Source of the DNA: Pseudomonadota bacterium
GTDB lineage: Bacteria > Pseudomonadota > Gammaproteobacteria > Burkholderiales > Methylophilaceae
NCBI GenBank assembly: GCA_029563075.1
Contig: JAKQTN010000067.1
Span: 55,775 to 119,774 of the forward strand
DNA: 64,000 bases
Direction of reading: 5' to 3'
Shown: piece by piece, positions 11,484 through 63,696 of the stretch
Layout of the letters: each line of letters opens with the position of its first letter
How positions within the stretch are numbered: the stretch's first letter is position 1
Notes under the pieces: model-generated
What the model was told of the DNA's origin: nothing
The model's input: only the letters and a program-made list of their open reading frames with translations
Databases searched by the model: none
Program-made: the position numbers and the translations under genes

Positions 11484-14400
11484 TTAATTCGTTTTAAATT
11501 TTCCGGTTCGGAGCTTTTCTAGCCCATTCATCACCAACGAATATGCTGCCGGCACCACCACTAAAGTCAGTAAGGTCGATGAAATCATGCCGCCGATAAT
11601 GGCGACTGAAAGCGGCCGGTTGGTTTCACTGCCTGCGCCTAAGCCCAGCGCCGCTGGCAGCAAAGCCAGAATAATGGTGAGCGAAGTCATCAATACCGGG
11701 CGTAGTCTGATCGGGCAAGCTTCTTTAAGTGCTTCGTTGATGCTGGCACCTTTTTCACGCAGTTGGTTGGTTAAATCCACCAGCAGAATCGAGTTTTTGG
11801 CGACCAGGCCTATCAGTAACACCAAGCCTATCATCGAGAAAATATTGAGCGTGTCGCCAGAAATCAAAAGAGCGATAAGTCCGCCGATAATAGCGAGCGG
11901 TTGCGCGAGCATGATGATAAGGGGCTGAATAAACGAGTTAAATTGGCTCGCCAGCACCATGTAGAGCAGGACAAAAGCGAGCAAAAATACAAATTTCACG
12001 TTTTTCATGGTTTTGCCAAGCTCTTCGGCCTGGCCTGTGAATTTAACCTTGTAATTTGGTGGCACCAGTTTAGCGATGGTTTTATTCACCAGATCCACCG
12101 CCTCGCCCAGTGGCATGTTGGGGTTGGCGTAAAAATTAACCGCATACTGCAAATCATAGCGGCCAATGACGGCCGCACCCAACTCTGCCTTGAAGCTGGC
12201 CACAGCGTCTAACCTGACCAACTCGCCACTTGCGCTTCGGAGATAAATTTTGCTTAGATCTGCTGCATTTTTAAGCAAGGTTTCGCTTGATTTCAGGCGG
12301 ATGTCGTAACGCTGGCCATCGCTGGTGGAGTCATTATATTTTGCTACATTGATGCCGCCAGCATATAAACTCACGGCGGTGGCAATGTCATTAGCGCTCA
12401 GGTCTAGTGTTGCTGCGCGTGCACGGTCAATCTGCATATTGAGCTGCGGCAAGTCCAGTTGCACATCTACATCCACTTTCCCCATGTCGGGATTGTTGCT
12501 CAAGCTTTGCTGCATCAGCTGCGAAATGCGGCCAATCTCCTGTAAATTGGCGCCTGTCAGGTTGAATTGCAGTTTCTCTGAGCGCTGACCGCGCACTATA
12601 GAGGTGGGTGACGGAATCGCGCGTACGCCGGGAATCTTATCGAATTCTTTTTTTAACTCTTTAATCAGGGTTTGCTGGCTCTTGACCCGTTCTTCTTTAG
12701 GTTTCAAGCGTACATTGATATTGCCCTGGTTGACTTGCCCGCGGGAGCCCGCGCCAATGGTGGCAAAGTAGCTCGCTACTTCATCTTTATGGCTGGCCAC
12801 AGCGGCTTCAACCAGTTTCAGGCGCGAATCTGTGTAGGCCAGGCTCGAACCTAAAGGGGTTTTGATACTGATGCTGAAACTGCTTTCATCCGCTTCCGGC
12901 ACAAAGTCTTTAGCGACATGTTTGAGCGAATAGAAACCAGTGGCACCTACGAAAACAGTGGTGAATAACAAGACCAGGCCACGGTGATCGAGCGCGAAGT
13001 GCAACAGTTTTTTGTAAACGCTTTCCAGCGTATTCAACCCGCGGCCAATAGCCTTGTAAAGCGCATTTTCATTATGGGTAACGCTGAGATAGCGCGAACA
13101 CAGCATGGGCGTGAGCGTGAGCGAAACAAATAACGAAACAAGCACACCAAACGTGACCACCACGGCAAACGATTTAAAAAACATGCCGATGACGCCATCC
13201 ATAAAAATCACCGGCGCGAATATGCACACCAACGATGCAGAGGAGGCCAGCACCGCAAACACTACTTCGTTACTGCCGACAATGGTGGCTTTGGTGCGAA
13301 ACGCCGCTACCGCTAGCGGGTCTTTCAAGTCGCTTGCGCTCAAGCCAGTACCAGCTTCGCCAGACATGTGCCTTAGAATGCTCTCCCGCACCACAATGGC
13401 ATCATCCACCACCACACCGATCAGCAACAGTAAGGCCAGCAAGGTCATGCTGTTGAAGGTGTAGCCGGCAAAATACATTACCGCGATTGCGCCCAGCAAC
13501 GAAACGGGGATTTCCAGACAAATCATCAGCGTAGAGCTGAAAGAGCGCATAAAGATTAATACAATCAGCGCGGCAAACAGCGTTCCTTCAACCAGATGCT
13601 CTTTAAGCGATGCGACAAGCTGGTTGATGAAAATGGAGTCGTTGCTCGAAATTTCGAGCGTCATGCCGGCCGGCAGATTAGGGCGAATATCGGCTTCAAG
13701 CCTGCGTTCGACTTCTTTAATGATTTCCACTGTATTGGCGTTTGCGATTTTCACCATGCCAATGCCCACTGTGGGTTTGCCATTGTAGCGCGCCACCTGG
13801 CGATTGTCTGTAATGCCGTCTTCAATCGTGGCGATGTCTTTTAGACGAATGGGCACGCCAGCTTTTGTGAGCACGACCATATCCGCGAGTGTTTGGGTAT
13901 TATGAAACTCAAGGTCGAGCTTGACCAACTGTTCCGCCTGCTGGCTGACCAGAAAGCCGCCTGGAAGCTGCACGTGTTCGCGATCAAATGCAGAAACTAA
14001 ATCGTTGGCGGTGAGTTTGTAGGCAGCCATGCGCTCCGGCGAGACATTAACGCGAATCACCCGGTCGCGGCGGCCGCCAAGCGTCACTTCGCCTACGCCC
14101 TGAATGGTTTCAAATTTCTTCTTCAGTACGTTATTGGCGTACAAATTGAGTTGCTGGATGGTGCGGTCGCCGCTCAAAGCCAGCCAGATCACGGGTGCAG
14201 CGTTGGTGTCGACCTTTTGCACAGTTGGCGGATCGGTGTCGTCGGGCAGGCGGCGCAATACCTGATTCACTTTGGCTTGCACCTCGTTGTACGCCACATC
14301 GATGTTCTTGCTCAACGCAAAGGTAATTTTGATGCTGGAAACGCCGGGCGATGAAGCAGACTCAATATGCTCAATGCCGGGTGTGGTATTGACGGCGGAT

Positions 14401-14603
14401 TCAATCACGCTGGTGATGCTGGTATCAACCACTTCCGGGTCAGCGCCGCGCAAGGTGGTATTGACCATAATGATCGGGAAATCAATAGAAGGGATGCGGT
14501 CTACGCCAATGCGCTGGTAAGCGATGAGGCCGAATAGTATGATGACGCCGGATAGCATCCAGGCGAGGACGTGGCGTTTTATCGATAGTTCAGGCAGCGT
14601 CAT
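11484..14603 (-). CDS. Efflux RND transporter permease subunit
   Basis: 1039 aa AcrB/MdtB-like; SIDFPIIMVNTTLRGADPEVVD N-terminus; GVVVDDAIVV motif. Confidence 0.93.
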   Translation of the reverse strand: MTLPELSIKRHVLAWMLSGVIILFGLIAYQRIGVDRIPSIDFPIIMVNTTLRGADPEVVDTSITSVIESAVNTTPGIEHIESASSPGVSSIKITFALSKNIDVAYNEVQAKVNQVLRRLPDDTDPPTVQKVDTNAAPVIWLALSGDRTIQQLNLYANNVLKKKFETIQGVGEVTLGGRRDRVIRVNVSPERMAAYKLTANDLVSAFDREHVQLPGGFLVSQQAEQLVKLDLEFHNTQTLADMVVLTKAGVPIRLKDIATIEDGITDNRQVARYNGKPTVGIGMVKIANANTVEIIKEVERRLEADIRPNLPAGMTLEISSNDSIFINQLVASLKEHLVEGTLFAALIVLIFMRSFSSTLMICLEIPVSLLGAIAVMYFAGYTFNSMTLLALLLLIGVVVDDAIVVRESILRHMSGEAGTGLSASDLKDPLAVAAFRTKATIVGSNEVVFAVLASSASLVCIFAPVIFMDGVIGMFFKSFAVVVTFGVLVSLFVSLTLTPMLCSRYLSVTHNENALYKAIGRGLNTLESVYKKLLHFALDHRGLVLLFTTVFVGATGFYSLKHVAKDFVPEADESSFSISIKTPLGSSLAYTDSRLKLVEAAVASHKDEVASYFATIGAGSRGQVNQGNINVRLKPKEERVKSQQTLIKELKKEFDKIPGVRAIPSPTSIVRGQRSEKLQFNLTGANLQEIGRISQLMQQSLSNNPDMGKVDVDVQLDLPQLNMQIDRARAATLDLSANDIATAVSLYAGGINVAKYNDSTSDGQRYDIRLKSSETLLKNAADLSKIYLRSASGELVRLDAVASFKAELGAAVIGRYDLQYAVNFYANPNMPLGEAVDLVNKTIAKLVPPNYKVKFTGQAEELGKTMKNVKFVFLLAFVLLYMVLASQFNSFIQPLIIMLAQPLAIIGGLIALLISGDTLNIFSMIGLVLLIGLVAKNSILLVDLTNQLREKGASINEALKEACPIRLRPVLMTSLTIILALLPAALGLGAGSETNRPLSVAIIGGMISSTLLTLVVVPAAYSLVMNGLEKLRTGKFKTN

Positions 14604-14605
14604 TT

Positions 14606-14727
14606 AAAAATCCAAACTTCGTCATCATGCTGTGTTGCGCGCAAAAAATTACTCCTTACATAATCAAACATATGCGGCGTCGCAATTTTTTGCGCGCGCC
14701 TTGCCTGATTTAGAACTTTGAATTTTT
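14606..14727. repeat. Intergenic palindromic element, copy A (122 bp)
   Basis: Outer arms AAAAATCCAAACTTC / GAACTTTGAATTTTT (13/15 paired), inner perfect 14-bp IR 14637-14650 / 14684-14697; core aligns by eye with 62471-62594. Confidence 0.7.
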
Positions 14728-14753
14728 AGAAGCATTTTAATAAACAATAGTAA

Positions 14754-15857
14754 CTAGTTTTTTTCATGACCAATCTTGACTGGTGCCCCATTCGTCAAAA
14801 AGCCGGCGCCGTCCACCACGATGACATCATTCGCTTTCAAGCCTTCCAGCAGTTCAATCATGCCATTTTGGCGCAAACCGGTTTTTACGACTGCCTGATA
14901 TGCAATATTGTTGCGTACGACATAAACCACTTCACCCGCAGGGCGCAGCACCAGGCTTTGCTCGGGAATCATCATGGCGGCTGCCTGCGAGCCTAAAATC
15001 ACGGTACCAGTAACGCTGGCGCCAGGTTGCCAGCCGGGGGCGTCTAGCACGTCCGCAATCACGTCTACTGTGCGGCTGCCTTCAGTAATCATGGGTTTTA
15101 GTTCGTGAATCACGGTTTCGACCGGTTTGTCGCTGGTGGGTGTTGTGAGCCGTACTTTGAGGCCAGGTTTGAGTTGTGCGCCGATGTGTTCTGGAAAAGG
15201 CAGATGCGCGCGTAATCTCTGTTTGGAAATAATTTGCACGATGGGATCCCCCACACGCACGAAATCGCCCGTATCCACAATTTTTTTCTCTATCACACCG
15301 CTGACAGGTGCAAGCACCCTGGTTTTTCTGCTGCTGTGGTTGATGCTCGCGACGCGCGCTCTCGCTGCCTCAAGTTGTTGTTTCAGTACGTTTTGCTGGG
15401 CAATGTCGTTATCTACCGCGTTTTGGGAGATAAATTTTTTATCAACTAAAGCCTGGTTGCGGGCAACGATTTTGGCCTGGTTTTCCAATAATGCCTGAAT
15501 GCGCGCAATTTCCGCCTGTGCTTCATTGCGCTGCATGGTGAAATCGGCGGCATCTAAAATGGCGATGAGTTGCCCCTGTTTGACGGTTTGACCAGGGTTA
15601 ACCAGCACTTTAACCACGCGTGCAGCCACCTCTGCTGCTACCGTTGGGTCTACCAGGCCTTCCAGCGAGCCGATGGCCACTTCTGTAGTTTCAATCGCTT
15701 GGTTCTTGACTTCAGTAATGGTAACAAGGGTAGGTTTCTGGCCTTTTTTTTCAGACTTTTCAGCTGTTCCATCGTCTTTTGCGCCGCAGGCGATCAATAG
15801 CAAAGATAGCAGCCCGATAAAAAGAGAGGAAGAGATGTTGTGCATAAATGTCTTCAT
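14754..15857 (-). CDS. Efflux RND transporter periplasmic adaptor subunit (lipoprotein)
   Basis: Lipobox (LLIACGAKDD), membrane-fusion-protein fold, adjacent to RND permease. Confidence 0.9.
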   Translation of the reverse strand: MKTFMHNISSSLFIGLLSLLLIACGAKDDGTAEKSEKKGQKPTLVTITEVKNQAIETTEVAIGSLEGLVDPTVAAEVAARVVKVLVNPGQTVKQGQLIAILDAADFTMQRNEAQAEIARIQALLENQAKIVARNQALVDKKFISQNAVDNDIAQQNVLKQQLEAARARVASINHSSRKTRVLAPVSGVIEKKIVDTGDFVRVGDPIVQIISKQRLRAHLPFPEHIGAQLKPGLKVRLTTPTSDKPVETVIHELKPMITEGSRTVDVIADVLDAPGWQPGASVTGTVILGSQAAAMMIPEQSLVLRPAGEVVYVVRNNIAYQAVVKTGLRQNGMIELLEGLKANDVIVVDGAGFLTNGAPVKIGHEKN

Positions 15858-61875: not shown

Positions 61876-62475
61876 ATGATGAAACTTTACTCTGGATCAG
61901 TCGATCCTTATAGCCATCGCTGCCGAATTGTGCTGTTTGAAAAAGGCATGGATTTTGAGGTGATCGATGTAGATCTTGCCAATAAAGCCGAAGATTTGGC
62001 GGTGCTGAATCCTTATGGTACGGTGCCTGTACTGGTGGAGCGCGATCTTGTGCTGTCTGAGGCCAATATCATTAATGAATATATTGATGAGCGTTTCCCG
62101 CATCCGCAACTGATGCCGGCCGATCCCGTCATGCGTGCGCGTGCAAGATTGTTTTTGTATAACTTTGAAAAAGACCTGTTCGACCACATCAAAGACATTG
62201 AATCCGGCGATGATGAAAAAGCTGACAAGGCGCGTAAAACCATACGCGATAACTTAACGCAGATCGTGCCTATTTTTAGCAAGCAAAACTATTTGCTAGG
62301 TGATGAATATTCGATGCTGGATGTGGCCGTAACGCCGTTGTTGTGGCGTTTGGGTCATTATGGCATTGACCTTCCCAATCAGGCGGCGCCCTTGCTTAAA
62401 TATGCAGAACGGCTGTTCTCGCGTCCGCTGTATGCGGATGCGATGACGCCTTCGGAAAAAGCAATGCGAAAATAA
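61876..62475 (+). CDS. sspA: Stringent starvation protein A (GST-like)
   Basis: Thioredoxin-fold GST-like sequence, followed by sspB. Confidence 0.93.
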   Translation: MMKLYSGSVDPYSHRCRIVLFEKGMDFEVIDVDLANKAEDLAVLNPYGTVPVLVERDLVLSEANIINEYIDERFPHPQLMPADPVMRARARLFLYNFEKDLFDHIKDIESGDDEKADKARKTIRDNLTQIVPIFSKQNYLLGDEYSMLDVAVTPLLWRLGHYGIDLPNQAAPLLKYAERLFSRPLYADAMTPSEKAMRK

Positions 62476-62594
62476 ATTGAATATCGTTGCAATACTGTGT
62501 TGTGTTTCAAAAAATTAACTCGTTATATATAAAAACATATACCGCCTCATTATTTTTATCGCACGCCTTGTCTTGCTTAGATATTCAATTTATT
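62471..62594. repeat. Intergenic palindromic element, copy B (124 bp)
   Basis: Perfect 15-bp terminal IR AATAAATTGAATATC / GATATTCAATTTATT; core aligns by eye with 14606-14727. Confidence 0.7.
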
Positions 62595-62611
62595 AATGAG
62601 GTTTTTAAAGT

Positions 62612-63052
62612 ATGAGCGAGTTAATACCCACTAAACCATACATGGTACGCGCCATTCACGAATGGTGTGTAGATAACGGCTTAACGCCTCATCTGTTGGT
62701 TGCTGTAAATTCGCAGACGCGGGTGCCGATAGCTTATGTAAAAGATGGTGAGATTGTGCTGAATCTTAACTACTCAGCCACCAAGGATTTGCATATCGAC
62801 AATGATGCGATCGTGTTTTCTGCGCGCTTTGGGGGCATTTCTCAGAACTTGTATGTGCCGATGAGTGCTGTAAAAGGTGTTTTTGCGCGTGAAAATGGCC
62901 AGGGCATGTTTTTTGAAACTAGTGCGCAGATTGACTCTGATGGAACTGATACAAATGCTAAGTCGGTGAAGCCCCCATCAGGGATTGGGAGTGAGGCGGC
63001 AGATGATAAAGTGCCTGCAAAAAAGAAACCAAATTTAACAATAGTAAAGTAA
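62612..63052 (+). CDS. sspB: ClpXP protease specificity-enhancing factor SspB
   Basis: KPYMVRAIHEWCVDNGLTPHLLV, NLNYSATKDLHI. Confidence 0.93.
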   Translation: MSELIPTKPYMVRAIHEWCVDNGLTPHLLVAVNSQTRVPIAYVKDGEIVLNLNYSATKDLHIDNDAIVFSARFGGISQNLYVPMSAVKGVFARENGQGMFFETSAQIDSDGTDTNAKSVKPPSGIGSEAADDKVPAKKKPNLTIVK

Positions 63053-63130: not shown

Positions 63131-63206
63131 GCCGGATTAGCTCAGTTGGTAGAGCAGCGCACTTGTAATGCGAAGGTCGTCAGTTCGATTCCGACATCCG
63201 GCACCA
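63131..63206 (+). tRNA. tRNA-Thr (TGT)
   Basis: Cloverleaf readable; anticodon loop CTTGTAA; encoded CCA. Confidence 0.96.
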
Positions 63207-63304
63207 AAATCCCACTAGAATCTAGCAAGCATTCTCCAAAAACATACAATCACAATAATTTAAATTGGCTTTTCGACAATTGTGCGTATTTGCCCCGATT
63301 TTGT

Positions 63305-63333
63305 TTGACAGCATGTCAAAAAATACGCATAAT
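63305..63333 (+). promoter_or_regulatory. Sigma-70 promoter for tRNA-Tyr/downstream tRNAs
   Basis: TTGACA - 17 bp - CATAAT, then GC-rich discriminator, 14 bp upstream of tRNA-Tyr. Confidence 0.75.
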
Positions 63334-63347
63334 CGCGGGTTCGGTTA

Positions 63348-63432
63348 GGAGGGGTGGCCGAGTGGTTAAAGGCGACGGACTGTAAATCCGTTCTCTCTGA
63401 GTACGCTGGTTCGAATCCAGCCCCCTCCACCA
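63348..63432 (+). tRNA. tRNA-Tyr (GTA)
   Basis: Class II tRNA with long variable arm; anticodon loop CTGTAAA; encoded CCA. Confidence 0.96.
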
Positions 63433-63508
63433 AATAAATATGTAGCAGTAAAGAGCCTGCAGATAATGGTTCTAGCGGGTTGCGGTAATTGAGCATGCGT
63501 AACGCGAA

Positions 63509-63584
63509 GCGGGTGTAGCTCAGTTGGTAGAGCTTCAGTTTTCCAAACTGAATGTCGCGAGTTCGAGCCTCGTCGCCCGCTCCA
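63509..63584 (+). tRNA. tRNA-Gly (TCC)
   Basis: Cloverleaf readable; anticodon TCC; encoded CCA. Confidence 0.96.
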
Positions 63585-63621
63585 GCTATTGCGCTTGACA
63601 GGCATTTGATTTGTAGTAAGA

Positions 63622-63696
<75 letters not shown>

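Follow-up and report, generated by a model that had tools for sequence, protein, structure and literature searches.

A betaproteobacterial MITE relic between RND adaptor and pump genes, probably kept as an intercistronic RNA hairpin

RESULTS

A nested hairpin occupies the adaptor-pump junction

The window, meaning the whole stretch of 64,000 nucleotides that was analysed, carries two related hairpins at gene junctions, and both are matched by R1, a covariance model built from the two of them. The features are listed below.

11484-14603, minus strand: RND pump gene (AcrB family); its ATG (14601-14603) adjoins the copy A hairpin
14603-14730, minus strand: copy A, a tipless hairpin classed as MITE-derived, in the RND adaptor/pump intergenic region (R1 match G000:C8:70377-70504, 146.4 bits; folds)
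14605-14630: left outer arm of copy A, 26 nt, 77% complementary to 14703-14728
14637-14650: left inner arm of copy A, a perfect 14-mer
14652-14681: apical block of copy A, CTCCTTACATA...AACATATGCGGCGTC, conserved family-wide
14684-14697: right inner arm of copy A, a perfect 14-mer
14703-14728: right outer arm of copy A, 26 nt
14754-15857, minus strand: RND adaptor gene (HlyD family), upstream partner of the pump; its stop codon lies 23 nt before copy A
61876-62475, plus strand: sspA-like gene (glutathione S-transferase fold), upstream of copy B; its stop TAA (62473-62475) lies within copy B's first bases
62468-62596, plus strand: copy B, a hairpin in the sspA-like/sspB intergenic region (R1 match, 143.2 bits)
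62612-63052, plus strand: sspB, downstream of copy B

A cluster of four tRNA genes follows shortly downstream of sspB (63131-63693).

An earlier note on this DNA had described a nested palindrome between the adaptor and pump genes, and both pairs of arms are present there. Its inner perfect 14-bp repeat is exactly as described; the outer arms, reported to pair at 13 of 15 positions, do pair but are longer, and the start is corrected, with copy A beginning at the pump start codon. The minimum free energy of copy A is -39.0 kcal/mol on the plus strand and -49.9 kcal/mol on the minus strand (z = -4.6 and -6.0; none of 200 shuffled sequences folds as well), making the hairpin more stable on the coding strand of the adaptor-pump operon. 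Copy B likewise folds with z-scores of -5.2 and -4.2 on its two strands, relative to shuffled sequences. Because the pump ATG adjoins copy A, the pump's ribosome-binding region falls within the 3′ arm of the hairpin. A scan of copy A found no promoter-like or terminator-like site.

Copies A and B align locally with a score of 58, compared to a mean of 17.2 and a maximum of 37 for shuffled sequences, and the best other match of copy A within the window scores 25. Folded as a consensus, they share 36 pairs, 11 of which are doubly compensated, with both sides changed and the pair retained; the resemblance that the earlier note had seen by eye is real. A conserved TCCTTA (14652-14662, at the same place in most copies) forms part of one of the hairpin's internal loops; its opposite strand, UAAGGA, is complementary to the 16S rRNA 3′ end. 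A conserved short reading frame after an AAGGAG-like motif was also considered and rejected, as stop codons were seen by eye to break the frame in other copies.

The element belongs to a family spread across Betaproteobacteria

The R1 search located a third copy in the 2.1-Mb genome (on contig C78, followed by a gene starting MKTLLLVDGSSYLY, a putative PolA), together with 2 to 22 copies per genome in 14 genomes of the same genus, matches in four other genera of the same family, and 55 copies in G039, a genome of another family. The claim of a dispersed family thus holds, and the two outcomes that the earlier note had named as fatal to it, a lack of further copies and an A/B alignment no better than shuffled controls, are both contradicted. 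Sampling 300 genomes evenly across the order gave matches in 29 genomes from 13 genera (own genome included), and a class-level sample added just one further genome; with A and B as its training sequences, R1 under-counts distant copies in these searches, and many of the compared genomes are MAGs. One genome from another order of the same class (G436) holds 12 copies, which suggests horizontal transfer. By pattern scan, the hosts include Gallionellaceae (Sideroxydans, Gallionella, Nitrotoga), Nitrosomonas, Methylotenera, Methylophilus, Formivibrio, Iodobacter and Crenobacter, which makes Methylotenera, or a genus near it, the probable genus of the window. Overall, the family consists of small non-coding mobile elements spread across Betaproteobacteria.

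Outside these hosts, the consensus had no match in a plasmid collection, where copy A as a query retrieved only chance pieces of 24-28 bp, and none at E ≤ 0.1 in 5,426 E. coli genomes. An Rfam search at a permissive threshold with copies A and B and a consensus-like copy gave only chance matches (for example, Drosophila rox2), none of which reached a family threshold. No description of the family was found in open-licence full text, and it is apparently undescribed so far.

Terminal repeats, target duplications and a partner insertion sequence

The complete element is ~141 bp long and non-coding, with ends GGGCACCTCTAAAAAT..., and it terminates in GGGC(A/G)CCTCTAAAAAT inverted repeats, with GGGC..CTCTAAAAAT ends in 116 near full-length copies. 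Identical 4-bp flanks accompany 65 of these 116 copies, compared to 6.2 when flanks are shuffled; the signal peaks at a length of 4 only, with nothing at 3 or 5, and the target sites are A/T-rich. In copies A and B themselves, the outer tips are missing and no target site duplication is visible.

Further, G039 contains several copies of a ~1.33-kb insertion sequence whose transposase, in two overlapping reading frames, carries DUF772 (PF05598, 8.8e-24) and DDE_Tnp_1 (PF01609) domains. The first 16 bp of its ends (GGGCATCTCTAAAAAT) are identical to those of many MITE copies and several of its copies have matching 4-bp flanks, while the interiors of the insertion sequence and the MITE are unrelated by eye. 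The insertion sequence is IS5-family-like, as judged from its domains and duplication length rather than from an IS database. No DDE_Tnp_1 protein (PF01609) was found in the own genome, which is 99.6% complete, and no DUF772 transposase in the seven other genomes of the same genus that were tested. Given the inverted-repeat ends, the 4-bp duplications and the insertion sequence with the same 16-bp ends in a relative, the sequence evidence identifies the element as a MITE family, and not as a REP/RAYT system or Rfam RF02278. Its non-coding copies have their partner in G039, relatives offer both occupied and empty sites, and mobilisation in trans by the partner's transposase would be the predicted MITE trait. 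Of the origins that the earlier note had offered, a transposase-mobilised, MITE-like one is thereby upheld, and the REP/RAYT reading is not supported, as termini and target duplications of this kind belong to a DDE transposase element.

Several observations concern variation of the ends and arms. A possible second partner is present in Nitrosomonas mobilis (G043), where DUF772 transposase genes (L270, L275, L280 and L284) lie near GGGC(A/G)CCTCGAA(A/T)AAC ends that resemble the tips of Formivibrio and Crenobacter MITE copies. The terminal tips vary among the copies of one genome, yet both ends of a copy often match (GGTC..GACC, GGAC..GTCC), for example in L106, L125, L155 and L160 of Sideroxydans SW.3.112 and in L138, L142, L189 and L211 of DeMMO3_12; this within-genome matching is striking in Sideroxydans, moderate overall (28 matched, compared to 11.9 ± 3.6 when shuffled) and absent in G039. 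An extra left-arm module, GCGAGCATCCGC(...)GCGGATTGCCTGCTTACCCC, recurs at one point in copies from Nitrosomonas, Gallionellaceae and G039 (L113, L116, L117, L119, L130, L137, L159, L099, L101 and L102), a right-arm module, TATCAACAAGAACTGG, recurs in G039, and a third module, TAGTTGCGACATAACCT..., is found in Sideroxydans. The element seems to be modular.

Tipless copies abut coding sequences in a fixed polarity

Within the genus, 66 of 84 copies are without terminal tips, and in these tipless copies complementarity falls from ~0.9 inside the stem to ~0.3 just outside it, defining a sharp hairpin boundary. Since most genus copies are tipless and the own genome is without a DDE_Tnp_1 transposase, the copies of this genome look immobile. 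Both circumstances, like the fixed polarity towards coding sequence described next, were unforeseen in the earlier note.

The neighbouring genes of 63 tipless copies, representing ~45 independent sites, were called as crude open reading frames on longer flanks, without a gene finder. The flanking genes are codirectional in 55 of the 63, divergent in 6 and convergent in 2. In the orientation of copy B, the left end is flush with a coding sequence (-12 to +8 nt) in 54 of 63 copies, compared to 6 of 63 for the right end. In particular, the left gene terminates at or within the left end in 39 of 63, its stop codon lying mostly inside the hairpin's first bases; most of the remaining 24 have an oppositely running gene whose start codon adjoins the left end, as in copy A. 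The left end of complete genus copies is also often near genes, about one tip length off. Across the family-wide set, there is no orientation bias to genes (48:49).

Individual sites are variably occupied. The adaptor-pump junction was found in 14 genomes with the pump N-terminus as a query (own genome included), and the hairpin is present in G000, G003, G010 and G013; the gaps in the remainder are short or unrelated. The sspA-sspB junction has the hairpin in G000 and G005 and is without it elsewhere, apart from apparent remnants in G007 and G011 (L230 and L231), where the intergenic regions are short and retain only parts of the arms, suggesting internal deletions. As neither site is conserved genus-wide, no copy is essential.

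Pairing is retained under sequence change

In an alignment of 102 copies, two-sided changes occur in 45 of 50 pairs and in 448 cells, compared to 140 when shuffled and at most 99 with slid partners, and the loops hardly vary. A set of 58 sites identified from their flanks served to keep family effects out, and 18 of them are common to at least two species; at these, one sequence was folded alone and its structure was tested on its orthologue. This procedure replaced an earlier alifold test on orthologous pairs, which was dropped because it is circular for broken pairs. The 18 orthologous sites contain 234 two-sided changes, compared to 74.7 expected from the per-base rate, and 199 of the 234 (85%) are still paired, compared to 27-40% for slid controls. 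At least one compensated pair is present at 11 of the 18 shared sites.

The remaining non-Watson-Crick cells favour one strand. In the orientation of copy B, A.C exceeds G.T, equivalent to G.U on the other strand, with 239 versus 76 cells in columns with a Watson-Crick majority, in 93 of 102 copies and in 28 versus 11 columns. Such a bias points to RNA, or to a single DNA strand, as what selection acts on. It is the same whether or not the favoured strand is the mRNA strand (134:75 and 65:34), and one invariant A.C column contributes part of it; for both reasons, the strand evidence is suggestive only. The earlier note had proposed co-variation for a hairpin or a cruciform: co-variation that keeps the hairpin is present, and a cruciform is not the favoured target of selection, since the wobbles prefer one strand, as expected of RNA or a single DNA strand.

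DISCUSSION

Comparison with known repeat elements

The enterobacterial MITE ERIC (also IRU or RU-1; 127 bp) is likewise a short, imperfectly palindromic sequence in intergenic DNA that is transcribed, with a hairpin of similar length. In Yersinia, ERIC has an orientation-dependent effect on upstream transcripts, where opening by the ribosome exposes an RNase E site (PMC2229807; PMC10969869). ERIC termini carry a TA motif (PMC2229807), unlike the GGGC... ends and 4-bp duplications of the present element, and identity to ERIC by sequence is rejected, as the consensus is unmatched in E. coli genomes. By position alone, the present element does have an ERIC-like placement, in a fixed orientation at gene 3′ ends with the stop codon inside the hairpin, in 39 of the 63 tipless genus copies. 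The Correia element of Neisseria (NEMIS, CREE) is also a MITE, with inverted repeats that fold into a hairpin in mRNA, and the copy in the leader of the gonococcal mtrCDE efflux operon is cut by RNase III (PMC2649163; PMC10969869). This Correia copy, placed before RND efflux genes, is the nearest published parallel in position to copy A. However, Correia elements are most often 104-108 or 153-157 bp long with TA at their termini, so that length, ends and target duplication all differ, and on this description of Correia the present element is set apart from it; a short motif common to both, GACAAGG, is only a lead.

REP/RAYT systems are dispersed palindromic intergenic repeats as well, but depend on a Y1 RAYT transposase and leave no target duplication, and are rejected here in view of the terminal inverted repeats, 4-bp duplications and DDE transposase partner. 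The betaproteobacterial toxic small RNA RF02278 is similarly structured, multi-copy and intergenic; its best score in the genome is 31 bits, against a cut-off of 50 and at another place, with no match at A or B. The IS5-family-like insertion sequence of G039 has 16-bp ends like those of the MITE, but is 1.3 kb long and coding, with an unrelated interior.

Alternative explanations

From sequence comparison, the MITE origin and the retained pairing can be regarded as established, as can the fact that the two copies in the window have lost their mobility signals. The copies could be neutral relics, in which template switching during replication of quasi-palindromes copies mutations from arm to arm without any selection on a transcript. 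The large excess of two-sided changes over expectation, seen both in mobile and in immobile copies, would fit such a process, as would the lack of genus-wide conservation at the A and B sites. However, the mismatched internal loops (CGTC/CTTAG, CTGCGTTG/CGCCTTG and TCCTTA/GCGTC) have barely changed and were not converted into pairs, complementarity stops abruptly at the base of the hairpin, wobbles are strand-biased and the copies sit in a fixed polarity relative to genes. Moreover, double changes are unclustered (10 adjacent, compared to 10.5 when shuffled), which disfavours tract-wise template switching, though the copying of single mutations remains compatible. Neutral persistence is therefore considered unlikely.

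The family-wide lean of G.U to the best-folding strand in both gene orientations, together with the unbiased orientation of the family to genes, would be expected if the element makes, or once made, its own small RNA from that strand, acting in trans or as an antisense RNA. The scan of copy A and the Rfam thresholds, with RF02278 below its cut-off in the genome, speak against this origin, which we regard as quite improbable. The strand bias does count against a role in mRNA alone: it ignores the mRNA strand, which that role does not predict. A bidirectional intrinsic terminator would account for an A-rich 5′ arm, a U-rich 3′ arm and an element that often begins at a stop codon, but tipless copies lie almost always between codirectional genes and hardly ever between convergent ones, and the scan found no terminator-like site in copy A; the gene arrangement leads us to reject termination, to which we assign the smallest probability of these alternatives.

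Relic hairpins as candidate regulators at gene junctions

The best explanation is probably that copy A descends from a betaproteobacterial MITE family as an immobile relic, and that such relics are kept as intercistronic RNA hairpins. We infer that selection keeps the hairpins in intercistronic mRNA, where, at gene joints, they may tune the amount of each gene product. Sites of the B type have the upstream stop codon within the 5′ arm; there, ribosomes finishing translation would melt the outer stem and leave the U-rich 3′ arm accessible to an RNase, as proposed for ERIC. At sites of the A type, where the downstream start codon adjoins the hairpin, the paired 3′ arm would hide the ribosome-binding region, and, compared to the adaptor, the pump would accordingly be expected at a reduced and uncoupled level. 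A role at the transcript level within the adaptor-pump operon is plausible, and copy A would exert its effect on the pump gene by this route.

More tentatively, and with the balance of probability somewhat against it, Methylotenera-like bacteria could have converted a MITE family wholesale into operon-internal RNA devices, with many immobile copies per lineage, one end on a stop or start codon, and compensatory upkeep. A model and boundaries are now given for an element common among nitrifiers, iron oxidisers and methylotrophs, of which neither an Rfam family nor a paper in the open-licence text gives a description. The question of whether bacterial MITEs serve as host regulatory RNAs rests on few cases (ERIC and Correia); with many orthologous immobile copies, compensatory changes and a fixed position relative to coding sequences, the present family makes it testable by comparison and simple reporters. 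If the wholesale conversion is true, mobile DNA would be a general means of setting the expression ratios of adjacent genes.
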